Below are positions 15,258 to 32,525 of a stretch of 64,000 nucleotides of DNA, in pieces. The DNA comes from Profundibacter amoris (GTDB lineage Bacteria > Pseudomonadota > Alphaproteobacteria > Rhodobacterales > Rhodobacteraceae), in contig NZ_CP032125.1 of NCBI RefSeq assembly GCF_003544895.1, positions 2,432,001 to 2,496,000 on the forward strand. The letters run 5' to 3'. A program made the translations under genes and the position numbers. The notes under the pieces are model-generated. The model saw nothing but the letters and a program-made list of their open reading frames with translations. It was not told the origin of the DNA and searched no databases. Within the stretch, counting starts at the first letter, position 1. Every line of letters starts with the position of its first letter.

Positions 15258-16271
15258 ATGACTACAACATTTTATGCCCGCGGCGATAGCTCTACCGCCA
15301 ACAACGCATCCCTGAACGCGGAAAACACCAGCACCACACCAGTTACAACGCTCGAGTTTGTTGCCACAGACGGCGGCGACATCATTCTGGAATACAATGG
15401 TGGCGCAGAAGACTCCGATACAGTTGTTTTGGTTGACGGGGTCGAGATGACATTCACCGTCGAGTTCTCAGGCACGCTCCCCTATACAAACAAGCTAAGT
15501 GATGTGAATGGCGAAGATTTGCGTGGCACCGAGATAATGGTGATCACTACATCCGACGGGCAGCGTTATTTTTTCGGAACGGACGGCACATTGTCTGTGG
15601 CGACGATGGAGGACTTTCCCAATGGCGCCCATTCAATCGAGAATGTTGACGATACAACGGACATATTGATTTGTTTTGCTGGTGGAACGTTTATCGAAAC
15701 GCCGGATGGCCAGATCAAAGTCGAAGACCTTCGTGTTGGTGGTGCAGTGAATACATATTCCGGCATTCAAACATTGCGCTGGATCGGGGTCCGTTCGATA
15801 TTTGCCAAAGAATTACAAGCCAAGCCGCATTTTCGGCCGGTTGTTATTTCTAAAGATGCCCTTGGCGCAGGGCTTCCCTCATCTGACTTGCTGGTTTCGC
15901 CTAATCACCGAGTGTTGCTGTCTGGTTGGCAGATGGAATTGAATTTTGCTACAGATTCTATGTTATGTGCCGCCAAATATCTGGTTAACGGCACAACAAT
16001 TGTAACAGATATGAAAACGTCAGAGGTCAAATATTATCATTTGATGTTTGATAACCACGAGATCGTCTTATCGAACGGGTTACCATCAGAAAGCCTGCTA
16101 CCATGTGGTTTGACCGCAAAGGTTGGCCAGTCTGCCGCAGAATACGAGTTTAAGGAAATTTTTGGCGTAAAGTCCTTTGATCCCGTCAATAAGAAAAAAT
16201 CTGTATATCCAGCATTGAAATGTCATGAGGCAAAACTCATGCACTCTATTAAAAAGTATTCGCTAAGTTAG
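15258..16271 (+). CDS. Hint-domain protein
   Basis: 337 residues. The C-terminal half carries a Hint (hedgehog/intein-like) domain: CFAGGTFIETPDGQIKVEDL at about residue 139, then VSPNHRVLLSGW and the block near YYHLMFDNHEIVLSNGLPSE. The Cys at the start of the domain is the expected autoprocessing residue. The N-terminal part (about 135 residues) is polar and rich in Thr/Asp. Many Rhodobacterales encode such proteins, often with secreted or RTX-like features; the function is unknown. No typical signal peptide is visible. The gene is AT-rich relative to the neighbouring operons, as are tadE and tadG. Confidence 0.8.
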   Translation: MTTTFYARGDSSTANNASLNAENTSTTPVTTLEFVATDGGDIILEYNGGAEDSDTVVLVDGVEMTFTVEFSGTLPYTNKLSDVNGEDLRGTEIMVITTSDGQRYFFGTDGTLSVATMEDFPNGAHSIENVDDTTDILICFAGGTFIETPDGQIKVEDLRVGGAVNTYSGIQTLRWIGVRSIFAKELQAKPHFRPVVISKDALGAGLPSSDLLVSPNHRVLLSGWQMELNFATDSMLCAAKYLVNGTTIVTDMKTSEVKYYHLMFDNHEIVLSNGLPSESLLPCGLTAKVGQSAAEYEFKEIFGVKSFDPVNKKKSVYPALKCHEAKLMHSIKKYSLS

Positions 16272-16667
16272 CAAATCATGCTCTGAGAACAGTGTGAGTT
16301 AATCATTTGAAAAGTCACCTTAAGGTCTGCCGCGTTATCCTTGCTCTTGTATATTTTCGCGGAGCACTCTTTCCATTCCTTCGAGCCCCGCCACACTTCG
16401 GTCCGGCCGAAATAGGCCAAACTTGACTATCCGGGACCAGATGGCGGGGATCAAGCACAGGATATGGGAAGAGCTTTCGAAGCTTTACAATCTGGACTTG
16501 CTCATCAATCTGTTTCGGCTTCCCTATAAGAAGGCTGTTATTTAATTTTTCTGTTTTATATCATTGCCATGTGGCGGTGGAAACGATTCTGACAGCGAAC
16601 GTTCTCTGGTCTGCGAAGGAAACCTGAAAAAATGGGAACCGCTCCATGCCCGCCCTTCGCTTCAAGG
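16272..16667. other. Intergenic stretch at the left edge of the defence-like island
   Basis: About 400 bases with no convincing gene. A short frame at 16441-16545 (MAGIKHRIWEELSKLYN onward, 34 codons) remains open well upstream in the same frame and could be the tail of a decayed gene, but I recognise no family. Sequence character changes here from the Hint region to the large minus-strand ATPase gene. Confidence 0.4.
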
Positions 16668-19600
16668 TCAGCTTCGTTTGAAACCATATCGGATGCCTTC
16701 GCCGAGAAGCTCTAAAACACCTTCTCCCTCTTCCGTCATTGGGTTTGGCAACATCTCCACTGATAGATTAGGCGGATCTGATAAGTTGCTGACATAGGCT
16801 ATTTTGTACTGAGTGCCGCTACGAAACTTGGCTGATGCGCGGGCAGCCTTGATTTCTGTCTCTCCCATTTCAAAGGATTGCGGATCCTCCAAGCTTGCTT
16901 TTACCTCTATTTGCCAGAATTGTTTATTATAAGTTACCTCAAAATCGTACCCTAGGCCGTCATCACTGGCACGCCCAGTTATCAACCCTCCGTTTTCCGA
17001 CCGCCAAGCAGCGTCGATATCCTGTTTTGGCAAGATTTTATTTAACCAGTGGTAGACCGCAATTTCACCTAAGCGTCCTATTAATTGGGTCTTTTCCTCA
17101 GGGGCACGTGATCGCCTTTTTGACGAACCACGTGGTGGTTTTTTTCTTTTCGGCGATCTAGGGTTTTGATTTATAGGTGCCAAACTCGACTGAGCTCCAA
17201 GCGATGCTTTTAGCATCTTTGCAGGAAGGGTTTCGGACAGCTCGTTTGATAGCTCCAGCAGATCGACTTTTTCCGGGTCAACCACTCGGCCATTGAACAA
17301 AATCGAACGTGCCTCACGTTTACGGACTTCGGCCTCTTCCCGCGCTTTTGCATCTTCTTGCTTCAGGTCATCAGAAGAGAGCCCCAACTGTTCGCAATCA
17401 AGTGAAACCGGCATTTCGTCGGGCCACAAATTCAGAATTTGGATCCATTCGAGCAAAGAGCCCTCGCCTAGTTTTCGGAAATCAAGCGCTCCCACCTCAT
17501 CCAACTTCTTGCGGATTTTTTCAGCACAGCTTTCTTGAGTTTGCCAAAGCGTCGGAATGAGGGTTTGGAATTTAACACACCAAGCCCGGACAAGCGGCAA
17601 CGCTTTCTTTGTCACATCTTGAATACAAAGGCGGTTGTGTTTGCGGACATCGTCCAAGGGTTCCAGGTCAGCGTCCTCAGCCCCAATCGGCCGTGCCCCG
17701 TGGGTTGCAAGCCACGCATTTACCTTGCTGATAATAATTTCTTCTGGTGGCGACTTAAATCTTACTAGCCAGTTAGGATCTGGACTGATTTCACGAATAT
17801 TACTTCGGATAGCGGCATAATTTTCTACCGGCTTCAGAGACTGGAGTAGTTTGGAATAAGCTGTCCTCAAGGCATCAATAATCGCCACCTCCTTGTCACG
17901 AATAAAATTTTCCATTTTCGACTTATGCACCTCGGGGTAAATATCAGGGTCAAGCCCCACGGCAATAAGGCTTGCATTGAAATCAGCAAAATCAAAACTT
18001 AGGTTTTCACGAAAGTCTCCAGGTCCAAGAGCGCTCCTACAAGCAGATAGAACATCGTCCGCCGAAAGTTCTGCAGGCTGGAGCAACGTAGAAAGCGCCC
18101 CATGAAGTAACGCCACATCCTTCAAAATGTCCGGACATTCACGATCAAACTCCTCTACGGCTTCTTCATCTACGACCAAGTGTAGTAACGCGCGTATCCA
18201 GGGCGCCTGTCGTTCCAGCCCAGCGCTAAGTGTACTGCGGGCCATGGTGCGTGCTTCCCGATCCAACTGCAGAATATCTGCGTATCGGTCGATGTCATCA
18301 TCGGGACAAAAACTGGCTTCGTCAATTTTACTCTCAGCTCCGAAATGAGCGAGCAAAAGCCTTAGATGGGGTGAAAGGGCACGCTGTTCGATGGCTTCGC
18401 ATAGCGCTGAAATACATCGGTCTATGAGATTTACGTCCCAATTACGGGCACTGCGCACAACTACAATTGGGTAACCATTATCCAAACTCAGGTGATATGC
18501 AGCACCCTCTTCCTGGCCGTGAGACACATCGAGGCCGTCAATCTTGAATGTAAGGTTTGCAGCCTTTTGCAGTTTGAGCAGGTCGAGTTTTGCCAGCACG
18601 ATAGAACGGTCAGCAGGCAGACGCTGAGCTTCGGTACCCTTTAGAGCTTCCATCGCCACTGCTACCATTACCCGCATCCTTGGACAGATGTCGAGCACTG
18701 AGGCGATGTCACCCTGGCCAACATCCCGACCGTCAGCAAGAAAGGTATATTCCGCTTTTGACAACCTTGTCACAATCTTGCCATAGAGGTGTTCAAGAAG
18801 ATCCCCAATTTGTGTGGGGTTACCTTCCTTCACTTCGAACAAGAGCTGACCGCTCGCCTCAACAAGGCGCAACTCAGCCTCCCGTTCGGTGTCTCTAACA
18901 TATAGCCGTTCAGATTCATTTTCCTCCAAGTCCGTCACTCTAAGTGTCTCGACATGTGAGCCTCGCCGCACCAGGATTTCATCCGGTAATAAGAAACCGC
19001 CGTCATCCAACTCGCCCTCAGCCCATGCACTCGCAGTCAACGCCCAAGTATGGCTGTATAGGTTGAGAAGGCGTCGTTCGAAATAACTGTCGAAACCCTC
19101 GCGGGTAAATTGCTCCACTAAGAATGTCAGCTGCTCGCCAAACGTCGTCGAGTCATTGAATGTGCGCAGTCCGGAATGGGTTTCGAGATTCTCAATCAAC
19201 TCCTCGGATGCCCGCTCCAACGCGCGCCGAAGTGGTAGCGAGGGGCGGCGAAGAAACGTGGGAAACCGTTCACCACCCGATTTGTGAAACCAGACTTCAG
19301 AAGGTTGTACAGTGATCCGTTCCGCGCCTCCGCGAGACGGTTCCTCGACAGGAACCCAACGTGCAGAGCGCAAAAACGCAGAAATGGGAGTGGGCCACAT
19401 CCGACTATCTGCATAGCGGCTGAAGTGATGATGAATCTCCACCTTCCAGCATTGTGGCAATTCGCCAGAAAGCCAGATGATAATCAATTGTGCGTAGTAT
19501 TCTTGGCACTCCCAAGAAAACTGTTCCACATCTGCCTGCCCGGGGAGCCACCATAATGAACCATCAACTACATAATCGGTCGCAGAAGGGAGATGTAAAA

Positions 19601-22151
19601 GCCCAGAATCCTGAACCTCAATATCGTCTTTCCAAAGTGTGGCAAATTCAATCGGAATTCCATAGCTCTGAAGGAAGGAAAAATCATGAATCTTCCAAGC
19701 GCGGAATGTACGCGGTTCACTTTTTTTCTCGACTGGATGCAATCCGGATTTCACACCGAGCTCCCTAAGGAATTCTGTCCAGTCTTCAATCCACTTATCG
19801 CGAAATGCAGGGTGATCCGGGGCCGCAAGTCGACGGTTCGATAAGTCTTCCAGATCGGGAATGCCGGACGGGCTAGAATCTAGAAAATCTTGAAGCAGTT
19901 GCCCGCAGGTATCTTTAGGCCAGCCCGTAGAAAAAACCAGCTCCCTTGCCTCAACATAATCACCTGTTACAGAAGGCAGCCGGAAGCGGTGTTGTGGCTG
20001 CAGCTTGAAAGGGCGACCGGTCGCCCGAGGCTGGCGCCAAAGATGAAACGCCCAACGCAATCCGCCTCGAAGCACTTCCTTGTTTTTTTCTTCCGCAAGA
20101 ATTCTGGAAAGCTGTGCCAGAACAGCCTCGCGATCAAATTCAAGCACCAGTTTATGGTCTTCAAGGAATTTCCGTGATTCACCCAATTCATCATGCCAGG
20201 CAAGCTTACCAGATAGAAACGCGAAGCGACTACTTAGCTTCGCAGGTGGATCAATATCCAGATCGTCATCAGTATTTGTTCTGCGCGGATCCGGAGGGGA
20301 AAAAACGACAGTTTCACGCCTTGAGCGGCGCTTGGCTCGTTTTCCCTTAACCTCTGCACTCGGTATGGAGGTCAACGCAAAATGCAGTTTTCCATCATCT
20401 CCCAGAAAAATGCGGTTGTTTTCCAAGGCCTCCCCGTAGTCACCCATAAAGTCAGGGAGATCTGCATAAAAAGCTGTCCACGTAGATAAATGGGTGCCCG
20501 GATCCGCGGCAAGTGATTTCGCTATACTGCTTACGAACACAGCCCGCTCATCACCGGTGGGCGGTCCCGGGTAGTTAGAAGCATGATCTTGCAGATAGGA
20601 ATCCAATAGGTCCATCCGTTCTTCAAGCGCCGGCCAAATCGGTGCGATGCCTGTTTCAAAGGTAAACAATGTGGAAAATTCAGCTGAAAAAGATGTGGTG
20701 CCGTCAGGCCAGCGCCGCGCTTGATTGGCCGGGCTCCATGACAAAGTTAGGACATCTTCAGTTGAGGCGAGGCATGGTACAATGGGCGCTTCGCCGAAAT
20801 CTGACGCACCGAACCGTTCGGCGACCTTTTGCGCGACCTGCCCAGCGAAATCTTCATCTGTATCAAGGCTATCCACATCACCCCAGCATAGCAGGTCAGC
20901 AACTGCTGTGGCGCGAGCATCGACATCTAGCCATTGTACGATCGAACTGGATGGTTCCGCGCTCAAATGGTGGATTGCGCGCGCCGCAAGACCAGTTGCT
21001 TCCTCGAGCAGCATTCTGTTTAGCGCAATATTCGCATCGAGACTTTTACGGTTGGATCTGGGGAAAAAACTACCGTGGAGATGCCCTGGTAAAGGTGCGG
21101 TTGCTTGCTCTCCCATTGGCAGGAAGGTGTAAAGCCGTGGGGTCCGCACTGAAGCATCAAGCCTGACGGCGAGCGCAACCTCTCCGGCTCCCTTCCAAGT
21201 GTTCCAGTTTTCGTTCAGTTGCTTCTGCTCAATGGCATGCGCGATAGCTTCTTTCATGGCAGTTTCCGGCACTGCCGTGCGAGCTAACAGATACGACCCG
21301 GCGAAACCAAGATCTACATGGGACAGACATTTTTCCGAACCGGAAAGAGGTTGTTCATTACGATCCAGAGAAAAACCAATCAATTTATCCGGGTCACTCC
21401 CGATCATTCGGAACCCAAGATGTGAAATGCGCTCAAGAAAAAGAATAATGGGGATATCTTGATCGCGGATAGCAATTATTTCCGCCTCCACTGCCAACCT
21501 GGCCGCCTCATCGCGCAAAGGTAGTTCGATGACGGTGGCAAACCCATCTACCGCAAACGCCGTTACAGGTGCCGGCTGCTCCGGGAGCCAGATTGGCACA
21601 TGGAACGCTGGAAGATCGCGGTGTGCGAGATCGAGGTGCTGACGCTTATTGATAAGCGCCGCAAGGTCTTCGCCTTGGGCAAATTTGAAACAGAACCCCG
21701 AAAAACGAGTGTGATCAATTTTACCTATAGCTTGGGAAAAAATCCTTGGGGAATCAGTTATCTGGACAACGCTCTGGAACCCGAGCCCCTTATTTCCGAT
21801 AGACTCTCCCAAGGGTTTTTTGGAGAGGCCCATGTCACAAAGATCTTTGACGTTGCCTTGGGCGAATGGACTACCCTTATTTGCGATGTAAAGCGTCCCG
21901 TTTTTACCTCGACTAAGATCCAGTACAATGTCGATCTGTCCATCTTTCGTTCTAGGGGCATGTGCATCGTAGGCGTTCTGGATAAGCTCAATCAGGAAAC
22001 GCCCTCGGTAGTCGATTGCGATATTTTCGGTCAGGCTTGCATTGCTTCGATAAATATCGTCGTAATACTCGCCATCCTCGTCAATCATTCTCCGAAAACC
22101 CGTTAGTTTTCGAGAGGCCAACTTCTCGACAAATTGACGATGTCTATCCAT
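16668..22151 (-). CDS. Giant sacsin/HSP90-type ATPase with C-terminal DUF3883-like nuclease domain
   Basis: 1,827 residues from the ATG at 22151. The N-terminus is a GHKL ATPase of the sacsin type: N-box FLIELIQNAYDAHA (about 53-66), the degenerate box YIANKGSPF, and the glycine loop ESIGNKGLGFQSV (about 117-128). A long middle region has no recognisable motif. The C-terminal ~135 residues look like DUF3883, a PD-(D/E)XK-type fold: GRLGEIAVYHWL, GYDFEV and the ExK-like IEVKAS. A basic linker (RSPKRKKPPRGSSKRRS) precedes it. Its ATG overlaps the partner gene's stop (TGATG), with GGAG upstream. Large HATPase/DUF3883 proteins occur in defence islands, but I cannot match this pair to a named system. 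An anti-phage role is inference. Confidence 0.75.
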   Translation of the reverse strand: MDRHRQFVEKLASRKLTGFRRMIDEDGEYYDDIYRSNASLTENIAIDYRGRFLIELIQNAYDAHAPRTKDGQIDIVLDLSRGKNGTLYIANKGSPFAQGNVKDLCDMGLSKKPLGESIGNKGLGFQSVVQITDSPRIFSQAIGKIDHTRFSGFCFKFAQGEDLAALINKRQHLDLAHRDLPAFHVPIWLPEQPAPVTAFAVDGFATVIELPLRDEAARLAVEAEIIAIRDQDIPIILFLERISHLGFRMIGSDPDKLIGFSLDRNEQPLSGSEKCLSHVDLGFAGSYLLARTAVPETAMKEAIAHAIEQKQLNENWNTWKGAGEVALAVRLDASVRTPRLYTFLPMGEQATAPLPGHLHGSFFPRSNRKSLDANIALNRMLLEEATGLAARAIHHLSAEPSSSIVQWLDVDARATAVADLLCWGDVDSLDTDEDFAGQVAQKVAERFGASDFGEAPIVPCLASTEDVLTLSWSPANQARRWPDGTTSFSAEFSTLFTFETGIAPIWPALEERMDLLDSYLQDHASNYPGPPTGDERAVFVSSIAKSLAADPGTHLSTWTAFYADLPDFMGDYGEALENNRIFLGDDGKLHFALTSIPSAEVKGKRAKRRSRRETVVFSPPDPRRTNTDDDLDIDPPAKLSSRFAFLSGKLAWHDELGESRKFLEDHKLVLEFDREAVLAQLSRILAEEKNKEVLRGGLRWAFHLWRQPRATGRPFKLQPQHRFRLPSVTGDYVEARELVFSTGWPKDTCGQLLQDFLDSSPSGIPDLEDLSNRRLAAPDHPAFRDKWIEDWTEFLRELGVKSGLHPVEKKSEPRTFRAWKIHDFSFLQSYGIPIEFATLWKDDIEVQDSGLLHLPSATDYVVDGSLWWLPGQADVEQFSWECQEYYAQLIIIWLSGELPQCWKVEIHHHFSRYADSRMWPTPISAFLRSARWVPVEEPSRGGAERITVQPSEVWFHKSGGERFPTFLRRPSLPLRRALERASEELIENLETHSGLRTFNDSTTFGEQLTFLVEQFTREGFDSYFERRLLNLYSHTWALTASAWAEGELDDGGFLLPDEILVRRGSHVETLRVTDLEENESERLYVRDTEREAELRLVEASGQLLFEVKEGNPTQIGDLLEHLYGKIVTRLSKAEYTFLADGRDVGQGDIASVLDICPRMRVMVAVAMEALKGTEAQRLPADRSIVLAKLDLLKLQKAANLTFKIDGLDVSHGQEEGAAYHLSLDNGYPIVVVRSARNWDVNLIDRCISALCEAIEQRALSPHLRLLLAHFGAESKIDEASFCPDDDIDRYADILQLDREARTMARSTLSAGLERQAPWIRALLHLVVDEEAVEEFDRECPDILKDVALLHGALSTLLQPAELSADDVLSACRSALGPGDFRENLSFDFADFNASLIAVGLDPDIYPEVHKSKMENFIRDKEVAIIDALRTAYSKLLQSLKPVENYAAIRSNIREISPDPNWLVRFKSPPEEIIISKVNAWLATHGARPIGAEDADLEPLDDVRKHNRLCIQDVTKKALPLVRAWCVKFQTLIPTLWQTQESCAEKIRKKLDEVGALDFRKLGEGSLLEWIQILNLWPDEMPVSLDCEQLGLSSDDLKQEDAKAREEAEVRKREARSILFNGRVVDPEKVDLLELSNELSETLPAKMLKASLGAQSSLAPINQNPRSPKRKKPPRGSSKRRSRAPEEKTQLIGRLGEIAVYHWLNKILPKQDIDAAWRSENGGLITGRASDDGLGYDFEVTYNKQFWQIEVKASLEDPQSFEMGETEIKAARASAKFRSGTQYKIAYVSNLSDPPNLSVEMLPNPMTEEGEGVLELLGEGIRYGFKRS

Positions 22152-23767
22152 CAAGTCGCTCCAGTGCGTCTATGCGCGGGCAAATCAGCGACAACTATTT
22201 GTTGGCTGGCATCATCCCAGCAATAGTAAATTCGAAGACATCTCGAAGGATCCCGGGTATTCCCTCCATTTTTAATATGCCAATCAGCTGTATATCTGTT
22301 CCCTTGCCAATCAAATTCGAACTGGTCACCCCCACAATGAGCATTTCGGATACCAGCCTCTACTTCTGCCTCTCTGATTGACCCCCCGCCTTGCAAAAAG
22401 TGACTCCTCCCTGTTTCAGCAAGCCACTTCAAACAGCGGATTGTGAGGCCCATATTTTCAAACTGGGGGTTTTTTGAATTTTTCCGTGCGCGAGGGGCGA
22501 GGACGACTAAACCCGACAAGTTTTCGTCAACCCACATTGTGAACTGTGGCCATGTCTCAGGCAAGTCACTTTCGATTGATGACGTGCCGCCCTGTTCCTT
22601 CAGCTGGGCAGTCAGACTATGGATTCTATACCCATATGATCGGGCCTGGTCTTCCGCAGCTTCCGCACGTTCAATTGCGCTTTTGTGCTCGGCATCAAAA
22701 TAGTCCATTTCCCCTTTGCTCTCGTCCAACTCTCGCTCCAAAGCGTCGATGCGCGATTTTGCCATCGAAAGCTGCTCAGTTTCGCTTGCGTCGCTCATTT
22801 GCTCCTGTTGCAGACGGAGGGATGTGTTTCTGACCGAAGCGAATGTTAGGATATTTCTGTTTATCTGGGTTCGATGAATGCTTTCATTTGCAGCTAAAGT
22901 TCGCATCAACCGAACACACTGCTCCCGCCCATTTTCATCCGAAAGGCGATCGGCAACAATAAGCCTATGGGGGTACGGTGGTTCGTCTGGTGAAAAGCCG
23001 GGTAAATAGGCTCGAACAGCCCCGCCAAATACGGAGTGCCTTCGCCCGAAATCTTGTGTGAGTCTCCATGTAAACTCTGAGGGAACGACTACCACATGGG
23101 CCAAACCGATAGTCGCCCGATTCAGAGCATAAGCGTCGATTGCCGGCATTTCTGTATTTGTGCTATCGTCCGCGATCGTGAGTGCAAGAATTGGAAGCTG
23201 ACGATTTTTGTCCAATAATCCTTCCGTTAGCTCCATGTAATCAGCTTCAGATTGAATTATGCGAGGATGGGCGGTTACAGGATATCTACCCCTAGCCAGT
23301 CCGACTTTTTCGACTACCTGTTGGATAAATCCAGGTGAATGCGGAACAATATTGACTTGATCTTCTGTACTACTGACAATCAAACGAGCACTGAAACGCG
23401 GAGGTTCTTCCTTTCCAAGACCAACAACTACCTCCGTCGTCCAAATCCTTCCCGCCACCGATTTATCGGGATCGTCAGCCCGAATCGCCCAAATGTCGGA
23501 GTCTTCAGTTTGAATGCGCACGCCAGCGCTATTTCGCCCTCCCGCAAGGTAGTCGAAGTCTTCAAATCCCCACGCCTTTGGGGGTAGCCGCCCACCGCAA
23601 CGACGTTGCACCCACCTTAAAACTTCCTGCCTTGCGTCGCCTGCTGATTTTTGGGGATCATTACCAAGTAAAATTCCAGCAACCCGCAACACCTCAGTTT
23701 CTTTCACAGAACGCGGCATTGCAGATCTCAGGGACTGCAGCTTATCCCACATCGGATTATCGTTCAT
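22151..23767 (-). CDS. Unknown partner protein of the giant ATPase
   Basis: 538 residues, start supported by GGAGATTAAAA before the ATG. No known enzymatic motif is visible. Residues about 320-400 form a probable coiled coil (QEQMSDASETEQLSMAKS onward). The C-terminal ~130 residues form a compact conserved-looking domain (GLTIRCLKWLAETGRSHFL, then DWHIKNGG and RCLRIYYCWDD, ending VVADLPAHR). Similar ends occur, as I recall, in poorly characterised defence-associated proteins. The stop overlaps the ATPase start by one base, so it is the upstream gene of a two-gene operon. I do not assign a function. Confidence 0.65.
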   Translation of the reverse strand: MNDNPMWDKLQSLRSAMPRSVKETEVLRVAGILLGNDPQKSAGDARQEVLRWVQRRCGGRLPPKAWGFEDFDYLAGGRNSAGVRIQTEDSDIWAIRADDPDKSVAGRIWTTEVVVGLGKEEPPRFSARLIVSSTEDQVNIVPHSPGFIQQVVEKVGLARGRYPVTAHPRIIQSEADYMELTEGLLDKNRQLPILALTIADDSTNTEMPAIDAYALNRATIGLAHVVVVPSEFTWRLTQDFGRRHSVFGGAVRAYLPGFSPDEPPYPHRLIVADRLSDENGREQCVRLMRTLAANESIHRTQINRNILTFASVRNTSLRLQQEQMSDASETEQLSMAKSRIDALERELDESKGEMDYFDAEHKSAIERAEAAEDQARSYGYRIHSLTAQLKEQGGTSSIESDLPETWPQFTMWVDENLSGLVVLAPRARKNSKNPQFENMGLTIRCLKWLAETGRSHFLQGGGSIREAEVEAGIRNAHCGGDQFEFDWQGNRYTADWHIKNGGNTRDPSRCLRIYYCWDDASQQIVVADLPAHRRTGAT

Positions 23768-23878: not shown

Positions 23879-26494
23879 CTAATCATCTAAAACAACTTTG
23901 AAGGTCAGCTTTTGCCCACCAAGTTCCCGGAATGCGCGCTGACGACAACTGAGTACAATAATTTGCAGATCACCTGCTTGTCTATGGAGAGCATCAAACA
24001 TGCGTTCTATCCTGTCATCATCCGTATAAACCAGCGCATCATCCAGAATGATGGGGGCATGGCGCCCGCCAGAGGCAAGTAATCGCGCAAATGCCAGACG
24101 GACCAGCAGCGCAATTTGTTCCTGGGTGCCGCCCGACAGGACTCCAATGCTTTCTTCCTGTCCGTCACGGATCAAAGCCGTGGGCAAAATTCTGTCCCCG
24201 TCAAATTTAAGATCGGCATCGGGCCATAACAATTTGAGCAAGGGTTTAAGTTCATTAATCACCGGCTCGAAATACCGGTCCCGAGCTGCGGTGCGGGCGG
24301 CATCAAGTGTTCCGGCAAGCTCCTTCAGGACCTCGACTTCAAATTGCAAAGCCGCAAGCGTTTTTTCAGCAGCCCCAAAACGAATAACCACGTCGGTAAG
24401 ATCTTCTTCAACACCTTCCCCCGAGCGAAGATCAATTTTCGTATCAAGGCCAGCAAGCTCCTGCCCTAGACTGTAGATTTCGGTTTTGGCCTGTTCGCAC
24501 ACGGATTTGGCTCGATCCAGTGCGGCTTGACTCACCGAGAGGTCTGGGGCTTCTGCAGCCAGCTTTGTATATTCTTTTTCCAGTTTCCCGAGTAACGAGC
24601 CGGCGTCATCCAATTCGATAATGGTTTTCCGTTCCAGAGTATCGACATCCTCAAATTCCTTCACTGCGGCCTCGGCCTCCTCCAGAGTTGACTGGGCTGC
24701 GTCCGCTAAAACACTGGCGCGGGCTGCGGCGTCGCGGTCCTGATCGCGCTGATCGCGCGCGTCCTCCAATTCATCTTCATTTTTCTTCAGCCTCGTTTTT
24801 GCTGCGTCCACAGCTACTTGCGCGGTCTTTTGATCTGGCAAGTCTGCATCCGGCTCAACCGCTTCTGGCAGAGACGCAAGTTCTATGCGCAATGCGTCCA
24901 GATCATCCGGGGCAAGAAGTGAAACTTTATCTTTGGCATCCTGAACCCGCTTGGCAGCTTCATCACGCTGGTTTGCCGCCTTGTGTGCCGCATCAAGTGT
25001 CGAAAAACCCAAGTCATCCAGAGCCTTCGCAAATTTCACCTTAGCCTTGTTTAATTCGTCATCATCGTTGGCACCTTGCCCGGGACGCAGAGTAAGAAGG
25101 CCAAACTCGGGGATGTCAATCGTGGCACCATCGGGGAGAGGGACAACCTCCTGATCTTTCAGAATACCCCCTGCAATCGTGGCGCGCGGGATTTCAGCAC
25201 TGACATAACTCAAGCTGACTTGTGGCGCGCTGCGCGTGCGCAGTTCTTGTTGAACAGAGACTTCCTGTGACAGCACATCCAGCTTTTCGATCGTTTTTTT
25301 GTCAGGGCCTGTCGCCGCTGCATTACTGTCGCTTGTGATCGACTTAGCCAAGGTTTCGACTTCGTTGATGCGCTTTTTCAGATCCTTTCGGCGTGTTTTT
25401 GCACTGCGCCCGCTCTCAGCCTTCAAAACTGCGTTAAGGGTCTTTACTGCATCTTCTTCAACCTCGCGGGCCGTTTTCACATCAGCCTTACAGGACACAA
25501 AATTCGCCTCGGAATCCTTCAACGTCTTAACGCATTCTGCCGCAAATTCAGATTTTTCGAATTCATCCTTTTGAGCTTTCTCAAATGATTTTCTGGCTTT
25601 TTGAAGTGCTTCCAGCTTGGCTTCCACAGCATCACGTTCCAGAGTTGCCGTTTTCACCGCATTTTGCGCGCGTGACACGCTATCTGCATGGCGAAGCGCA
25701 TCTTCATGGGCTTTGGTGGCGTCTGAAAGACGCTGTTCACGGCCAGAAATCACATCTGCATCCTGAAGCTCGGCAAGCGCCTTTTTTATTTCGCGTCGCC
25801 GGTTAATTGCGCCGGAAAGTTCCCGAACGGTGTCTTCCAATTCGCTCTTACGCTGCGCAAGGCTGGCCACTTCCTTTTCGGCCGTATCCAGCGGGCCACT
25901 TTTCAACACTCTCCCTGTTGCCGTGACATACTTGCTCAGATCATCCTGGCACCGGTCAATTGCGATATCCATGCGCCGCCCGCCGGTGAGGGCTTCAACT
26001 TCGCCAGCAACCGAGGACATCAGATCCTGGCGGGCGTATTGCGCACTTTCCTTCTCTTTTTTGGAACCTTGGTCGAGCGCCGTAATCCCTTGGCGCACCC
26101 ATAACAACCCAGCAGGCCCTCCTGCATCACCAGAATGCATTAATTTAGCAATCCAGGCTTCGGCATCATCTGCCTTGGCGATTAACCGATCACCCTTATA
26201 CACTTCGGCCATTGGCTGTTTCAACCAACGCTTGATGATGCGGAATCGACCATCCGGAGTTTCGACTTCGACTTCAACCTGCGGAGCCCCACCCGCATGC
26301 GGTTTTAGAGCCATAATTTCCTTGCTTTTAGCACGAAGCCCCTGAAAAAATACCGCTTGCAGAGCATCAAACAACGTGGATTTTCCATACTCGTTGGGTG
26401 CCGTCAGAACATTTAGTCCGTCACCTATGCCATCAATGATGACAGGCTTAGTAAAACGGCGAATATCGCTAAGCGTGACAGAAAGAAGTTTCAT
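23879..26494 (-). CDS. SMC/Rad50-like ATPase (YhaN/SbcC type)
   Basis: 871 residues. The N-terminal ATP-binding motif is PNEYGKSTLFDALQ (Walker A with the NEYGKS variant typical of YhaN-like proteins). Two long coiled-coil arms follow (about residues 170-700). The C-terminal half-site holds the signature LSGGTQEQIALLVRLAFARL and Walker B PIILDDALVYTDDDR. It should act with the adjacent phosphoesterase as a Rad50-Mre11-like DNA end-processing complex. Its start overlaps the phosphoesterase stop by four bases (ATGA). The function could be repair or phage-DNA degradation; the location next to other nucleases favours an accessory role. Confidence 0.85.
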   Translation of the reverse strand: MKLLSVTLSDIRRFTKPVIIDGIGDGLNVLTAPNEYGKSTLFDALQAVFFQGLRAKSKEIMALKPHAGGAPQVEVEVETPDGRFRIIKRWLKQPMAEVYKGDRLIAKADDAEAWIAKLMHSGDAGGPAGLLWVRQGITALDQGSKKEKESAQYARQDLMSSVAGEVEALTGGRRMDIAIDRCQDDLSKYVTATGRVLKSGPLDTAEKEVASLAQRKSELEDTVRELSGAINRRREIKKALAELQDADVISGREQRLSDATKAHEDALRHADSVSRAQNAVKTATLERDAVEAKLEALQKARKSFEKAQKDEFEKSEFAAECVKTLKDSEANFVSCKADVKTAREVEEDAVKTLNAVLKAESGRSAKTRRKDLKKRINEVETLAKSITSDSNAAATGPDKKTIEKLDVLSQEVSVQQELRTRSAPQVSLSYVSAEIPRATIAGGILKDQEVVPLPDGATIDIPEFGLLTLRPGQGANDDDELNKAKVKFAKALDDLGFSTLDAAHKAANQRDEAAKRVQDAKDKVSLLAPDDLDALRIELASLPEAVEPDADLPDQKTAQVAVDAAKTRLKKNEDELEDARDQRDQDRDAAARASVLADAAQSTLEEAEAAVKEFEDVDTLERKTIIELDDAGSLLGKLEKEYTKLAAEAPDLSVSQAALDRAKSVCEQAKTEIYSLGQELAGLDTKIDLRSGEGVEEDLTDVVIRFGAAEKTLAALQFEVEVLKELAGTLDAARTAARDRYFEPVINELKPLLKLLWPDADLKFDGDRILPTALIRDGQEESIGVLSGGTQEQIALLVRLAFARLLASGGRHAPIILDDALVYTDDDRIERMFDALHRQAGDLQIIVLSCRQRAFRELGGQKLTFKVVLDD

Positions 26495-27621
26495 TGTTGC
26501 CCCTCCTGAAGATATCCGTAAAGGCGGTTCAGGGCAGCCGCGGATATTTTGCGCGCCTCTGCACTGCGCTCGTTGTCCTGCGCTTTTTCGCTGAGTTCTT
26601 CGGCCGCCACCCGCAGGGCACCTGCATGATCAATTGTATCAAGATCGGCATCTTCAAATTCGGTTTCCAGTGCGCTTTCGTCCAGAATAAAGTGACAAAA
26701 TTCCGGTGCGGCGGTTTCGGCGGTAACCCGCAGGGCGGATTGCTCCGCCAAGGTTGAACGCCCGGAAGCGCGAACCCTGAACATGTAATCCCGCAGTAAC
26801 GCGCGATCTGGGGGTAGTAATGCTTCAAAAGCTTCTACAGCAGACTGCCCAGGAACAAGGGGCAGATCTTCATCGATCCAGTAGAATTTTCCGGTTTCGA
26901 TCGTCTCTATTATTGGCTCGGTTCCGGGACCATCGAGCGTGATGGCAAGGCAAGTTCCTCGTCCAACATGTCGAAAACTGTCCCGCTCGGGAGTTCCCGA
27001 ATACCATGTCCGTTTTCCAACGGAAATGCGGCCGTGCCAGTCCCCCAGTGCCAGATAGTCCAGCCGGGCCGTTTCAGCGCGATCAGGCGGTATGATATCG
27101 TCCCCTTCTATGCTGCCTTCGCTGAAATCTCGGATTGCCCCGTGAGCCAGTCCGATGCGCAGCGCTTGCGGATCGGTTTTATGGTTTACCATCCAGGCCG
27201 TAAGATCACGGCCCGGATACCGCCGCGGCAAAGGGCAAGGTAAAAGACATACGTTTTTCTCAATCTCGATCGGCTTATCGGTGTCGATCAAATGCACATT
27301 GGCGGGAGCATGATGGCGAAACCTCTGCCACAGGCTTTCAGCGGCAAGGCTGTCATGGTTTCCGGGGATCAACCACCACTGGATATCAGGATTGCGCCCC
27401 ATGGCCGTTAAAGCTTGGCGCCAAATAGGGTCGGTTGGTGTTTCCGTGTCAAAGATGTCACCGGCCACAAGAATATGGGTCGCGTTATGATCACAGGCTG
27501 CCTGCACAAGCCGGTCGAGAATCTGATGTCGGGCATCGACAAGCCGCCCTCGGACATCTTCGGGCATATTGCCAAACCGGCGGCCAAGGTGAAGATCGGA
27601 CGTATGGATAAAGCGGATCAT
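26491..27621 (-). CDS. SbcD/Mre11-like metallophosphoesterase (YhaO type)
   Basis: 376 residues with the calcineurin-like metal-binding motifs in order: HTSDLHLGRRFG (residues 6-17), LVAGDIFDTETP, LIPGNHDS, LAHGAIRDF and LALGDWHGRISVG. The C-terminal ~90 residues form the expected capping region. It is the nuclease partner of the SMC-like ATPase, co-translated through a four-base overlap. The two genes are read leftwards and lie between the large ATPase module and the RecB-helicase gene. Confidence 0.88.
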   Translation of the reverse strand: MIRFIHTSDLHLGRRFGNMPEDVRGRLVDARHQILDRLVQAACDHNATHILVAGDIFDTETPTDPIWRQALTAMGRNPDIQWWLIPGNHDSLAAESLWQRFRHHAPANVHLIDTDKPIEIEKNVCLLPCPLPRRYPGRDLTAWMVNHKTDPQALRIGLAHGAIRDFSEGSIEGDDIIPPDRAETARLDYLALGDWHGRISVGKRTWYSGTPERDSFRHVGRGTCLAITLDGPGTEPIIETIETGKFYWIDEDLPLVPGQSAVEAFEALLPPDRALLRDYMFRVRASGRSTLAEQSALRVTAETAAPEFCHFILDESALETEFEDADLDTIDHAGALRVAAEELSEKAQDNERSAEARKISAAALNRLYGYLQEGQQ

Positions 27622-27688: not shown

Positions 27689-28102
27689 TCATGGCCGAAT
27701 ACCATTGTCCCACGCCTCGGATCCCGCCTGTCGAGCCGTTGCAACGTTTGCAAACCGCTCGGCCAATTCACGGTCCCCAATCCGAACCGAGTAGACATCC
27801 TTGCGTATCGCGGTATGCGTATCGCTCTTAAAAATTACAGCTACAGGAATAGCCGAATCTGCCGTTTCAAAGGCAAAGAATTCAGGGACGTCTCGATTGT
27901 GAGGCTCCCACCACAATGACCCTACTTTTTTCCGGTTATCCAATTTGCGCCCGGTCAACTCTGCTTTGATAGCCAAGCCCAAGCGCTGCGCATCCACATT
28001 TTCTGGATCACGCGCCAAAACCCGGTCAACGTTGGTGCAACGATCCTTGAGGGTTTTTAACGAGTCCTGGGGCAACCTCGAAATTATCCTGTCAATGTCC
28101 AT
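27689..28102 (-). CDS. Small unknown protein coupled to the RecB-like helicase
   Basis: 137 residues starting MDIDRIISRLPQDSLKTLKD. The N-terminal ~60 residues are helical and basic; the C-terminal part contains WWEPHNRDVPEFFAFE and TAIRKDVYSVRIGDRELAER. I recognise no family. Its ATG lies inside the 3' end of the helicase gene (11-base overlap), so it is translated with it and is probably a subunit or modulator of that enzyme. This is an inference from coupling only. Confidence 0.65.
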   Translation of the reverse strand: MDIDRIISRLPQDSLKTLKDRCTNVDRVLARDPENVDAQRLGLAIKAELTGRKLDNRKKVGSLWWEPHNRDVPEFFAFETADSAIPVAVIFKSDTHTAIRKDVYSVRIGDRELAERFANVATARQAGSEAWDNGIRP

Positions 28103-31100
28103 CGAATTCCCTTTCTTTCAACGCACATAGCGTATTCACCAGTTTCATCTGTTCCACCGTGTTGCATTTTGCCTCGCGAAAGCGCGGTGCACCAAAGACC
28201 AGCGCCAGCCCCTTTGCCCGTGATACCGCCACATTGATCCGGTTGAGCGAGAACAGGAATTCCATGCCGCGCGATGTTTCCTCGGCGGAACTGGCTGTCA
28301 TGGAGACAAGGCAGATTGGCGCTTCCTGTCCCTGGAACTTGTCCACCGTGCCGGTGCGGATACCGGTAGGCAGCGCCTCGGCCAAGGCATTGACTTGCGC
28401 GTTATAGGGCGCAACGACGATGATATCGTGCGGGCGCACAGGGCGGGCGGTGCCGTCCTTGTCGGTCCAGTGGCCGCGCAGCAGCTCGGTGATTGCTGCC
28501 TTGATCGCCGCCACTTCCTCGGGCGCAGTCTGGGCGTTGCCTTCGTGGGGGACCGGCACCCAGAATGCGCCAGCTTCGGGGAAGGACGTGCCGGTCACGC
28601 TTTGGCAGGCTGTATCGGAATGGCTTTGCAGCCGACCCTCGTAAACCTGCTCCGAGATAAACCTGCATACATCAGGATGCATCCGGCGGGTGACAGGCAG
28701 AAAGATGCCGCGCTCGGGCGGGATGGTGGCGTGATCTCCCAGTACCCATTCAAGGCAAGACAGGTTGGCAGGATGCGGGTGCGCCCCCTGAATGACTTGC
28801 GGCAATTGCTGAGGATCGCCGACCAGAACGATATTACGCGCGGCGCGGCCCATGGCCAACATATTCGCCAGCCCCACTTGCCCCGCCTCATCGACAAACA
28901 GCCAGTCAAAGGCCTGAATGTTCTGCTCCCGAGCAAAGAAAAACGCGGTGCCGCCCACCACATGAGAGTCTGTAAGCGCCGGATCATCATTCGAGGTCGG
29001 GCGAGAAATCTCCTCCACCCCCTCGGGGTAGCCGTCATTGCCCGGTGACACCTTATGCGCCATTTCCAACGTAATTGGCGTATCCTCGTCCTCAACAGCC
29101 TCCAAGCATCCCATTAGCACATTGCGGATCGCCTCGTGGCTGTTGGAGGCCACGCCGACCCGCGCGCCGCTGCGCACCAAAGACAGAATTACGCGGGCGG
29201 AAACATAGGTTTTGCCGGTACCGGGAGGGCCTTGAATGGGCAGCACGGTTTCGTCCATGCGGGCCACGGCATTGATGGTGCCCGCAACGAAATCGACGTC
29301 GTTCAGGATGTTATCCCCCGCAGGGGGCGTTAGCCGCGGGGGGCTGCGTGACAGAAGGTCATCCAGCGCGCGGTAAGTTCTGGCCCCGCATTGGTCTGCA
29401 ATTACATCGCGCAGGGCATCAGCAATGATCGCGGTCGAGATCGGCTTGTCCGGATGCAGGGTCAGGGTATCGGTCAGAAGATCCGCATTTTTGTTACCGA
29501 TTTTAAGGGTGATATGCCGCGCAGCGCGGTCCAGTTCCGTGACATTGACGGTGGCCATACCGTCCAGCGTCGGGATGGTCGCCTTGCGCCCCGTCCGCAG
29601 CTTGGTTTCCTGTTCGGGAAAACGATATGTACGCTGGACCGAGCGTTTGATTGGCTCGACCGGCCCTATGGCTTGCAATCCCGCAAGCGCGTCCAGATCG
29701 TCAATCAGATCATCCTCATCCTTGCCGAGACTGTCGAAAATCGCCCACCATGCCGGCTTCGCCTCGCGGGTGTGGAACATCCCCAGATCAAACAACATCG
29801 CCTGCCGATCTTCGGGCAATTCCGATGCCGTCAGCATGGCCCGCAGGGCGTCAGCCTCGGCGTCCTCCTCCACCTCTTTGTCGCCGAAGTCCTCGGCCAT
29901 TTCCGGCCACGGCCCATCGGGACGGATCCCCACCAGCCAGTCGCGTAGATCCTCGGTCGAGACGCAATCGATGCGGTTGTAATCCTCAATCTCGTCGAGA
30001 ATCTTCTGCTCGCCGGTCTCCAGCCATTTTTCATAGGCCACGACAGAGCCGCCAGCGGTTTTCACCTCGCCATCGCGCACAAGACCGTAAAACGCCTCCA
30101 TGGATTTGATCGAATAATTCGGTTCCGAACCGATCAACCCGCCGCGTACCACGGCAAACAGATCGACAAACCGCCGTTCGCGCAGCAGGCGGTCAAGAAA
30201 AGCTTCGCCGATACCGTATTTTGCGGTCAGGCGGCGAAGGGCGGTAATTTCATAGGGGGCGTAGTGGTAAATGCGGGCCTGCGGGAATTTCTCCAGACGG
30301 GCGCGAAAGAAATCAAACAGATCGACGACCGCCTGCTTTTCAGCCTCGTGGCTGTGCGCCCAGAATTTCACAAACTCGGTATCTTTGGCCCAGACCCCGT
30401 GCAAATATTCCAGTCCGCCTTCAAAATGCGGGTCGCCCTCGATGTCGTAAAACAGATCCCCCGCTTGGGGTTCGGGCAGCAGGTCAAAGCCCTTGCCGGG
30501 CTCTGGCGGGCGCAATTCGAAATCCGGCGCACCGGTCTTGCGGGCTTGTTGCAGGCGCGCCTGTGTCACCAACCGTGCGCGTGTCGGCTCACTCAACCCG
30601 CGCACCGGATGGTCCAGCGTGGACAGCGCCGCGAGTGTATCCACCCCCGTCGCTTCCAGCTTTTTCACTTGCGTGCGGCTGATATTGGCCACGTTGAACA
30701 GGCTGTCTTCTTTGACCCAGATATCCGCGCAATGATCCGCCCAGCGACACAGCCCGCAATCGGTGCAGGGCACAGGACGAGTTACCGCGCGGGGTTCCTC
30801 GGGACTTGCCACAAAGCTCTCAAGCCTCTCCCGCGCCGCCCGCGCATAGGCGCTGTAATCCCTAAGGCGCAACGTGGCGCGCTCGCCAGTGCCCAGTTCC
30901 ACATGGGCAAATTCCGGCATCACCCCCTGAATTTCCGCCAGCAGGTCGGAATAGAGCACCAATTGCAGCACATGCTTGGGGTGCGGCGTGCGTTTCAGCT
31001 TGGTATCGGTCACCTCATAGCTGAAATCCCCCAGTTTCGAGGGGCGCTCCACCCGTTCCAGGAAATCCGACCAGCCACCCCAGTTGCCCGACAGGAACGC

Positions 31101-31412
31101 ACCCTGGAAAACCACACCCGGCCCCTGCGCCAGAACCTTGCGGGTTTCGGCGGCATTGGCCGCAAGATCTCCGCTGTCGATTTCGACAATCCGCCGTCCC
31201 TGCGATTTCAGCTTGTCCAGATGTGCGGCCTCGTGCGCGTCTCCCTGTTTTTGCAACAGTGCCGCATCCTCGCTATCTTCTCGTGGCTTTGGCCCTTCCC
31301 CGCGCATCCGCGCCATATCCAAAACGGTCGCGTGCTTACATCCCATGAATTTCATAAGGTCGGATGCCGAAAACAGGATATGGCCGTCAACTTTGCGCAA
31401 TAAATGCCCCAA
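28092..31412 (-). CDS. TM0106-family RecB-like nuclease fused to a superfamily 1 (UPF1-like) helicase
   Basis: 1,106 residues starting at a TTG (31412). The N-terminal nuclease domain shows WSDFL (D116) and YEVTDTKLK (E133, D136, K138), a RecB-type active site. Cysteines at about 25, 216, 219, 222 and 228 (CTDCGLCRWADHC) could hold an Fe-S cluster, as in AddB-like nucleases. The middle RNase H-like region contains FYDIEGDPHFEGG. The helicase has Walker A GPPGTGKTYVS (about residue 729), Walker B FVDEAGQVG (about 844) and late motifs VDKFQGQEAPIC and NVAVSRAKGLALVFG. This is expected to unwind and degrade nucleic acid. It is divergent from the WYL regulator and HEPN genes. Confidence 0.87.
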   Translation of the reverse strand: MGHLLRKVDGHILFSASDLMKFMGCKHATVLDMARMRGEGPKPREDSEDAALLQKQGDAHEAAHLDKLKSQGRRIVEIDSGDLAANAAETRKVLAQGPGVVFQGAFLSGNWGGWSDFLERVERPSKLGDFSYEVTDTKLKRTPHPKHVLQLVLYSDLLAEIQGVMPEFAHVELGTGERATLRLRDYSAYARAARERLESFVASPEEPRAVTRPVPCTDCGLCRWADHCADIWVKEDSLFNVANISRTQVKKLEATGVDTLAALSTLDHPVRGLSEPTRARLVTQARLQQARKTGAPDFELRPPEPGKGFDLLPEPQAGDLFYDIEGDPHFEGGLEYLHGVWAKDTEFVKFWAHSHEAEKQAVVDLFDFFRARLEKFPQARIYHYAPYEITALRRLTAKYGIGEAFLDRLLRERRFVDLFAVVRGGLIGSEPNYSIKSMEAFYGLVRDGEVKTAGGSVVAYEKWLETGEQKILDEIEDYNRIDCVSTEDLRDWLVGIRPDGPWPEMAEDFGDKEVEEDAEADALRAMLTASELPEDRQAMLFDLGMFHTREAKPAWWAIFDSLGKDEDDLIDDLDALAGLQAIGPVEPIKRSVQRTYRFPEQETKLRTGRKATIPTLDGMATVNVTELDRAARHITLKIGNKNADLLTDTLTLHPDKPISTAIIADALRDVIADQCGARTYRALDDLLSRSPPRLTPPAGDNILNDVDFVAGTINAVARMDETVLPIQGPPGTGKTYVSARVILSLVRSGARVGVASNSHEAIRNVLMGCLEAVEDEDTPITLEMAHKVSPGNDGYPEGVEEISRPTSNDDPALTDSHVVGGTAFFFAREQNIQAFDWLFVDEAGQVGLANMLAMGRAARNIVLVGDPQQLPQVIQGAHPHPANLSCLEWVLGDHATIPPERGIFLPVTRRMHPDVCRFISEQVYEGRLQSHSDTACQSVTGTSFPEAGAFWVPVPHEGNAQTAPEEVAAIKAAITELLRGHWTDKDGTARPVRPHDIIVVAPYNAQVNALAEALPTGIRTGTVDKFQGQEAPICLVSMTASSAEETSRGMEFLFSLNRINVAVSRAKGLALVFGAPRFREAKCNTVEQMKLVNTLCALKEREFDGH

Positions 31413-31449: not shown

Positions 31450-31505
31450 CAGAACTCACTGTGAACAATAGCCTATAAGGGTGTCAATTCCTGTCGTGGT
31501 TGAAA

Positions 31506-32489
31506 ATGTCTTTTGCAAAAGCCCAGGATCTGCTTCGTCTCGCACTAATGGCGTCCTCGCGCCACGGTGGGATCAGCCTTGCGGAAATCCGCGCCGAATT
31601 TGACGTGTCCCATCGCACCGCGCAACGCATGACCGATGCACTGGAAGCCACCTTTGCCAATGTGGAAATCACCGACGGGGCGGATCGGCGGCGGCGCTGG
31701 CGGTTGCTTGATCCGGCAATCGCGCGGCTGGAACCACGTCAGGAAACCACCATAGAGGCGTTGGAAATTGCCACCATCTCGGCCCGTGACGACAACCGCC
31801 TGCGCCACGCCCGTGCGCTGGAAGAAATGAGGGACCGGCTGATGGCCCGCCTACCAGCGCGTGACGCGCTCAGGGCTGAAGCGGATGCCGAGGCGGTTCT
31901 GGCCTCGCTTGGCCATGTTGCCCGCCCGGGGCCACGCGCGGCGCAACGTCCCGAGGTCATGGACGCGGTGATCGAGGCCTTGCGCGGCCCGTTCCGGCTG
32001 GAAATTTCCTATGGGGCACAGAATAGCAAGCAAAGGATTGTGGAACCGCACGGGGTTCTGCTGGGCCTGCGCAGCTATCTGGTGGCCCGCCAGCCCGCGC
32101 GTGGGCCGGAATTGCTAAACTTCCGCATGGACCGGATCCAGACGGCGAATTGCCTGGACGAAAGTTTTGCCTTTGAAGACGGGTTTTCCATCGACACCTA
32201 TGCGGCAAAAGCCTTCGGTGCCTATCAGGATCCGGCCCAATACGGCGAGGTTGTCTGGCGCTTCAGCCCCGCCGCCGCCGAGCGTGCTGCCGGGTTCCAG
32301 TTCCATCCGAACCAGAGTGCCGAGCATCAGCCCGATGGCAGCCTGATCGTCCGCTTCCATGCGGCCGGCTGGCTGGAAATGGCGTGGTTTCTCTATCAAT
32401 GGGGCGATGCGGTCGTAGTTCTGGAACCGGCAGGTCTCCGTCAACTCACCGAAGGTTACCGACGATCCGATTTCGATGCTTTGCCCTGA
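31506..32489 (+). CDS. WYL-domain transcriptional regulator
   Basis: 327 residues from ATG 31506 (a TTG two codons upstream is also open). An N-terminal winged helix-turn-helix (GGISLAEIRAEFDVSHRTAQ, then RMTDALEATF) is followed by the WYL region: LEISYGAQNSKQRIVEPHGV, LRSYLVARQ, FRMDRIQTANC. A C-terminal extension (WLEMAWFLYQWGDAVVVLEP) is the WCX-type oligomerisation part. WYL regulators commonly control phage-defence genes and may sense nucleic-acid ligands. It is divergent from the nuclease/helicase and lies upstream of the HEPN gene. Confidence 0.85.
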   Translation: MSFAKAQDLLRLALMASSRHGGISLAEIRAEFDVSHRTAQRMTDALEATFANVEITDGADRRRRWRLLDPAIARLEPRQETTIEALEIATISARDDNRLRHARALEEMRDRLMARLPARDALRAEADAEAVLASLGHVARPGPRAAQRPEVMDAVIEALRGPFRLEISYGAQNSKQRIVEPHGVLLGLRSYLVARQPARGPELLNFRMDRIQTANCLDESFAFEDGFSIDTYAAKAFGAYQDPAQYGEVVWRFSPAAAERAAGFQFHPNQSAEHQPDGSLIVRFHAAGWLEMAWFLYQWGDAVVVLEPAGLRQLTEGYRRSDFDALP

Positions 32490-32525
32490 ATTTCCTTCAG
32501 CCCATTCAAACCGCGAGAATTGCCC

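Follow-up and report, generated by a model that had tools for sequence, protein, structure and literature searches.

A TmtA (Tiamat-type) ATPase gene at the end of a six-gene run in Profundibacter amoris, and its possible place in a WYL-controlled defence operon with exchangeable modules

The DNA analysed here, called the window, is a stretch of 64,000 nucleotides (nt) from Profundibacter amoris (contig NZ_CP032125.1, positions 2,432,001 to 2,496,000). A preliminary description had singled out two adjoining genes of the window, at 16668-22151 and 22151-23767, as a two-gene module composed of a giant sacsin-type ATPase/nuclease and a coupled partner, and had assigned it to no named defence system. 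Both open reading frames (ORFs) and the junction TGATG, in which the stop codon of the partner and the ATG of the ATPase gene have one base in common, are indeed present on the minus strand. However, PADLOC profiles match both products over their full length, as TmtA (Tiamat) and as HEC-07 (Hma-embedded candidate), and the statement that no named system fits therefore fails gene by gene. It should also be mentioned that the run of genes on this strand extends upstream of the pair to position 31412, which had been missed: TmtA and HEC-07 are the last two of six minus-strand genes headed by a TM0106-type protein.

The 16668-22151 ORF encodes 1827 amino acids (aa) from its ATG, or 1828 aa from a TTG located one codon earlier, and the PADLOC TmtA profile PDLC03971 matched the product with 1578 bits over residues 6-1827 of 1828. 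Its layout comprises an N-terminal sacsin/GHKL ATPase, a long middle part and a C-terminal NOV_C/DUF3883 domain of the PD-(D/E)XK-like kind. The ATPase was recognised by Pfam SACS (E value of 3.3e-8), by the NCBIfam sacsin ATP-binding-like family (1.7e-20) and, using a profile of eight sequences, through sacsin chains of the PDB (best value 3.8e-7), and the C-terminus by Pfam NOV_C ('Protein NO VEIN, C-terminal'; 5.1e-6), which upholds the giant sacsin-type ATPase with a DUF3883-like PD-(D/E)XK domain that had been proposed. The GHKL motifs ELIQNAYD and GESIGNKGLG and the nuclease-type motifs GRLGE, DFE and IEVK were found; the key residues of all of them are the same in the window protein and the seven relatives aligned with it, which also applies to D1736, E1749 and K1751 of the NOV_C domain (numbered from the ATG). 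The asparagine of the ATPase box is in place within its motif; what was previously called N60 becomes N59 if numbering starts at the ATG. For the last 450 aa, AlphaFold2 run on the single sequence gave a model too poor to use, with a mean predicted local distance difference test score (pLDDT) of 39.2. Taken together, the profile, domain and motif matches identify this product as TmtA, an already known type of ATPase with a predicted role in virus defence.

The partner (22151-23767, minus strand) is a protein of 538 aa that the PADLOC HEC-07 profile PDLC04161 matched with 663 bits over residues 4-538 and, judged from its sequence, it is the catalogued defence candidate HEC-07. The conserved-looking C-terminal domain attributed to it earlier (about 140 aa, encoded by 22151-22582) can be aligned over 13 sequences, that of the window included, and the coiled coil received only indirect support, from weak matches to coiled-coil-type families at about 319-399 of the protein. 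Three of the 13 members of the domain alignment matched a Menshen NsnC profile (best value 1.1e-9), and because of these matches the domain seems to be common to two defence catalogues; the NsnC matches listed (E values up to 0.01) do not include the domain of the window itself. Nothing firm was obtained when the domain was compared with Pfam and the PDB and the whole protein with PHROGs. The structure prediction proposed in the preliminary description, done as a single-sequence AlphaFold2 model, had a mean pLDDT of 38.9 and was too poor to use. A RelE-like fold of the C-terminus, which visual inspection and the order of strands in this poor model had suggested, was unsupported in profile comparison with hhalign (ParE, P 0.08 over 13 columns; HigB, P 0.011 over 17 columns), in which even the control, ParE against HigB, got no further than P 0.0014 over 56 columns.

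The head gene of the run (28092-31412, minus strand) encodes 1106 aa and combines a TM0106 RecB-like nuclease, RNase_H_2 and a superfamily 1 (SF1) helicase of the IGHMBP2 type, as indicated by matches to TIGR03491 (3.3e-75) and to Pfam RNase_H_2, AAA_11 and AAA_12. We take this protein to be Dna2-like in domain content, with its RecB-type nuclease and SF1 helicase. The gene in the first position behind it (27689-28102, minus strand), which shares 11 nt with the head gene, encodes a 137-aa protein with no assigned family, for which only marginal library matches (best E value of 0.02) and no match in the plasmid collection were obtained. It is followed, on the same strand, by the genes for an SbcD/Mre11-like metallophosphoesterase of 376 aa (26491-27621; Pfam Metallophos, 2.9e-10; TIGR00619, 8.3e-18, with 65.1 bits and thus under the subfamily cut-off of 77.65) and for an SbcC/Rad50-like ATPase of 871 aa (23879-26494; Pfam AAA_23 and SMC_N, NCBIfam ASRP), which overlap by 4 nt. 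A motif scan found no CxxC in the whole 871 aa of the SbcC-like protein, which therefore has no Rad50-type zinc hook. The other spacings inside the run are 67 and 111 nt and, given the spacing of the genes, all six would form one transcript. Divergent from the head gene lies the gene for a WYL-domain regulator (31500-32489, plus strand; Pfam WYL and WCX), which adjoins TM0106 in other loci too. Behind it, a HEPN-type protein (32520-33191, plus strand) carries the motif RNQLIH and matched by phmmer, with 360 bits, a protein of locus L172 annotated as HEPN in RefSeq; neither this protein nor its L172 relative had a Pfam match.

Relatives of the head gene carry different cargo in the position behind it, referred to here as the slot, which in the window stacks the SbcCD-like pair, HEC-07 and TmtA. 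The head protein is 71-76% identical in nine relatives with different cargo and is patchily distributed, being found (E values up to 1e-60) in 11 of the 387 genomes of a class survey that includes the genome of the window. In the plasmid collection, 68 records matched the head at E values up to 1e-30, 21 of them at 60-80% identity; 19 of these 21 were among the matches listed, all at least 70% identical, and 17 of the 19 were fetched (not H47 and H57), one of them being L071, first found through TmtA. With one locus from a genome (L189) and two from the viral collection (L208 and L209), they make up a set of 20 loci that can be reached through a head at least 70% identical, independently of TmtA, a count that leaves out L074 and the window. 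The slot of these 20 loci contains McrBC in seven (L172-L175, L189, L209 and L249), an SbcD-SbcC pair in seven (L176, L177, L250-L253 and L285, the last by record annotation alone), a sacsin-type TmtA-like protein in three (L071, L171 and L208) and no recognised module in three (L169, L170 with a 133-aa protein, and L254). These labels derive from family matches of representatives, phmmer and record annotation, and what is recognisable is limited to the families queried; the sacsin-type gene of L208, cut by the contig end, was identified from the resemblance of its product to the second sacsin-type protein of L171.

The arrangement of these loci is also recurrent. With the window and L074 added, the hub loci number 22, and a WYL gene was found in 20 of them (in pieces in L173 and L250, not in L209 and L249). 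Where there is cargo, the first gene of the slot starts at about -40 to +94 nt from the TM0106 stop, except in L209, where a McrB-type frame opens about 0.6 kilobases (kb) past it. The nearest relative of the window TmtA, in L074 (53% identical), stands in a locus with a divergent WYL gene, TM0106, a DUF4357-type gene and TmtA, with neither HEC-07 nor SbcCD, and the Roseovarius plasmid L071 has the gene order WYL-TM0106-DUF4357-TmtA with a TmtA-like protein 25% identical to that of the window. The TmtA-like protein of L171 best matches a different TmtA profile, PDLC03964, and the TmtA-like cargo of the slot is not one lineage. At lower identities of the head, a sacsin-type protein is found behind DUF4258 in L255 (about 52%) and a small hypothetical gene in L284 (about 40%).

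A tree of 31 TM0106 proteins (L285 left out) requires several swaps of slot content. The slot label changes at least nine times along this tree, compared with a mean of 18.7 after shuffling, and none of 200 shuffles gave a value as low. By type, three changes concern McrBC, one SbcCD (a clade of near-copies) and six the sacsin-type label, which on the tree also covers two loci from outside the 70% clade, L094 and L255; at least four of these six are forced by well-supported branches. The sacsin-type locus L171 and the McrBC locus L172 are sisters with a support of 95/93. It should be noted that six forks of the tree are open and that some rows have long branches. The occurrence of different defence modules at the same place in relatives of the head suggests a plug-in platform.

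The reading that we favour, with about an even chance of being right, is that the two genes form the distal part of a defence operon under WYL control, in which an end-processing head works with restriction-type effectors that can be interchanged, among them TmtA. It builds on established features, namely the gene identities, motifs, order and spacing, the recurring WYL-divergent TM0106 head and the replacement of slot content, and it supposes that the six genes would function jointly. Our broader proposal is tentative, and we would sooner doubt it than assert it: a plug-in immune platform, in which break-making or sensing modules (McrBC, sacsin-type TmtA and SbcCD-like) are exchanged in one slot behind a WYL-regulated Dna2-like nuclease-helicase that serves them all as DNA-destroying engine, and in which the TmtA-type protein, at least here, would be a target-recognising front end and not a single-protein system.

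Several observations weigh against the favoured reading. The seven SbcCD loci are near-copies on Sphingomonadales plasmids, six of them forming one clade in the tree, and the McrC of L175 and that of L249 seem to be split. No queried module is coupled behind the head in L190-L198, nine TM0106 loci that are partial or more remote; in one of them, L193, McrBC is divergent. The sacsin-type label clusters on the tree no more than by chance (a value as low in 213 of 500 shuffles), so that repeated placement is shown, yet these genes may be passing neighbours. The link is rare when seen from TmtA: of 90 TmtA loci besides the window, only four have TM0106 in the fetched stretch, with the slot arrangement in L071 and L074, the reversed order in L094, and TmtA about 11 kb away, outside the slot, in L070. 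In genome G096, TmtA, TM0106 and an SbcC-like gene are each on a contig of their own. Finally, defence genes cluster anyway.

The main rival is an ordinary defence island in which TM0106, the SbcCD-like pair, HEC-07 and TmtA are independent neighbours that have no mechanism in common and TmtA is a self-sufficient Tiamat; we regard it as a serious possibility, short of an even chance. TmtA is found without TM0106 in 86 of the 90 loci (some with short flanks), HEC-07 shows no common partner in the loci seen (whose neighbours were not annotated systematically), and relatives of the SbcC-like protein have ordinary surroundings in Thioclava (L256) and were also matched in 68 Rhizobium records; the unclustered sacsin-type label points the same way. 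Co-location alone does not imply joint action. However, overlapping genes and one position repeatedly refilled behind a conserved head are more ordered than loose clustering.

A dedicated two-gene system, with HEC-07 as a specific sensor or regulator of TmtA, is improbable. The TGATG junction and the adjacency of the two genes in the window speak for it, but the neighbourhood survey gave the opposite picture. The 90 other TmtA loci were collected from the plasmid, genome and viral collections (the genome collection, scanned with the TmtA alignment, gave 76 loci, and L060 and L084 are apparently the same contig); 42 of them match at more than 500 bits, with at least 1.8 kb upstream in 40 and on both sides in 33, and many others match the ATPase region only. 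None of the 90, the 42 strong ones included, has a match to the HEC-07 profiles at E values up to 1e-5. Conversely, among 15 fetched HEC-07 loci, 14 matched the HEC-07 profiles (L059 did not), some of them from the same or near genomes and one (L055) on a contig of 5.7 kb, and TmtA matched at more than 60 bits in none of these 14. The partner is thus mostly found without the ATPase, the outcome that the preliminary description had named as speaking against its own proposal, and the two-gene module is rejected on the grounds of co-occurrence. Similarly, the plasmid collection contains 13 HEC-07 and 25 TmtA records with no accession in common. In the class survey, HEC-07 was matched in 12 of the 387 genomes and TmtA in 35, three of these TmtA matches being strong (at least 737 bits), and only the genome of the window has a HEC-07 match together with a strong TmtA; in genome G196, the HEC-07 match is accompanied by a TmtA-type match that is weak and located on another contig. 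No HEC-07 relative was found in viral contigs with the two patterns used, nor in phage records by tblastn. As far as these samples reach, the TmtA/HEC-07 adjacency is particular to the window. Elsewhere HEC-07 is found without TmtA, and it is best read as a captured gene; the better-supported, though infrequent, association of this TmtA is that with the WYL/TM0106 head gene.

A DNA-repair or plasmid-maintenance operon performing Mre11-Rad50-like and Dna2-like end resection and not immunity is very improbable: the SbcCD-like and nuclease-helicase genes resemble resection machinery and many carriers are plasmids, but the McrBC, TmtA, HEC-07 and HEPN-type neighbours and the WYL gene point to defence, as does the patchy distribution of the head. 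Defence, put forward in the preliminary description, is supported as the likely role.

If the pair is indeed the distal part of a WYL-controlled operon, its working could be the following. The WYL protein would hold the operon down until infection, and the slot effector (TmtA here, McrBC elsewhere) would recognise foreign or aberrant DNA and make or hold a break. By analogy with what has been hypothesised for the GHKL-Shedu protein VcSduA, the GHKL domain of TmtA may close on its target in an ATP-dependent manner and so license the NOV_C nuclease. The TM0106 protein, aided here by the SbcCD-like pair, would then degrade the DNA from the break end, and HEC-07, captured in the slot beside TmtA, may modulate TmtA or act alone. 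We know of no settled account of how Tiamat-type ATPases work. Should this scheme hold, TmtA-type ATPases would be, at least here, part of a larger machine, one conserved nuclease-helicase engine would serve several unrelated restriction modules, and defence systems catalogued separately would use common machinery. The choice of module would then be a testable unit, in that the target range may change while the engine stays the same.

Further observations were made around the hub and the TmtA-type genes. In L171, a 2103-aa protein with two sacsin-type stretches (16277-22588) comes after the TmtA-like gene behind TM0106. In Sphingobium plasmids (L251, 7052-7885, with equivalents in L176, L177, L250, L252, L253 and L285), HEPN-annotated and small NOV_C genes lie on the far side of WYL, the NOV_C gene of L251, the only one scanned, matching PADLOC PDC-S36 with 396 bits; NOV_C proteins therefore border the hub on one side or the other, depending on the lineage. 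Moreover, other large proteins, whose representatives have 1113, 1612 and 2106 aa, are found again in nine, eight and seven of nine TmtA-type loci, mostly of Bacteroidota (L080, L125, L126, L128, L130, L135, L140, L141 and L207), possibly as another multi-gene system with a TmtA-type ATPase.

Regarding the surroundings of the run, the region is nuclease-rich, as had been proposed, and looks variable, HEC-07 being found in none of the 60 relatives searched, seven of which belong to the same genus. In the genus, two genes flanking the island have distant matches only and the prophage-type gene partial ones. The latter, a DUF2793 gene at 35056-36336 that adjoins the island, has a second, partly similar copy in the same genome (G000:C1:3090970, 51% over the first half). 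On the other side, the Hint_2-domain protein at 15258-16271 has seven further matches in the same genome and 7 to 12 matches per genome in the other seven genomes of the genus examined.

Both genes of the pair belong to catalogued families, and the head with an interchangeable slot was not seen in the literature matches listed. No title or abstract start describes the hub or the pair among the matches listed for open-licence PubMed Central, which is weak evidence, and none of the matches listed for the TM0106, WYL and McrBC literature contains TM0106. The two articles obtained for TM0106 itself both concern corrosion, and those listed for Tiamat, HEC-07 and TmtA include none about defence.

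The architecture of TmtA resembles that of plant NO VEIN and animal sacsin, and the window protein matches Pfam SACS, NOV_C and the N-terminal domain of sacsin in the PDB, whereas those proteins are eukaryotic. Tiamat is catalogued, and has been tested, as a single-gene system. The window TmtA is a full-length match to its profile with a sacsin-type N-terminal ATPase, but its gene closes a run of six on the same strand, and the ATG overlaps the stop of HEC-07 by one base. The SbcCD-like pair of the window shares with SbcCD/Mre11-Rad50 a metallophosphoesterase and an SMC-type ATPase encoded by overlapping genes, and differs by an SbcD-like protein under the subfamily cut-off and an SbcC-like protein without the CxxC hook. 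The partner is likewise a full-length match to HEC-07, whereas no Hma was matched by PADLOC among the seven window proteins scanned and the adjoining gene is TmtA; it is the Hma setting, not a sequence feature, that gave the family its name. According to excerpts of one article, several Hma-embedded candidates, HEC-06 included, have demonstrated antiviral activity (PMC12988326), and, according to excerpts of another, the systems found most often in one Pseudomonas island hotspot are Tiamat and type IV restriction (PMC12629846). VcSduA, a Shedu variant with a GHKL ATPase and a PD-(D/E)XK nuclease, has shown anti-phage activity, and its GHKL domain is hypothesised in the excerpted text to control the C-terminal nuclease, which would make it an analogue of TmtA in its working; by contrast, its nuclease is DUF4263 and not NOV_C, it is related to paraMORC3, and the word 'sacsin' is absent from the main text of that article (PMC12137116). 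Finally, in CoCoNuT, as excerpted, a McrBC-type GTPase stands in conserved association with the UPF1-like SF1 helicase CnuH, a combination of restriction GTPase and SF1 helicase comparable to that of the McrBC hub loci. CnuH, as described there, has a helicase and an OB-fold domain, and 'RecB' is absent from the main text of the article (PMC11090510), whereas the hub described here would differ from that system, as there excerpted, in also housing TmtA-like or SbcCD-like modules.

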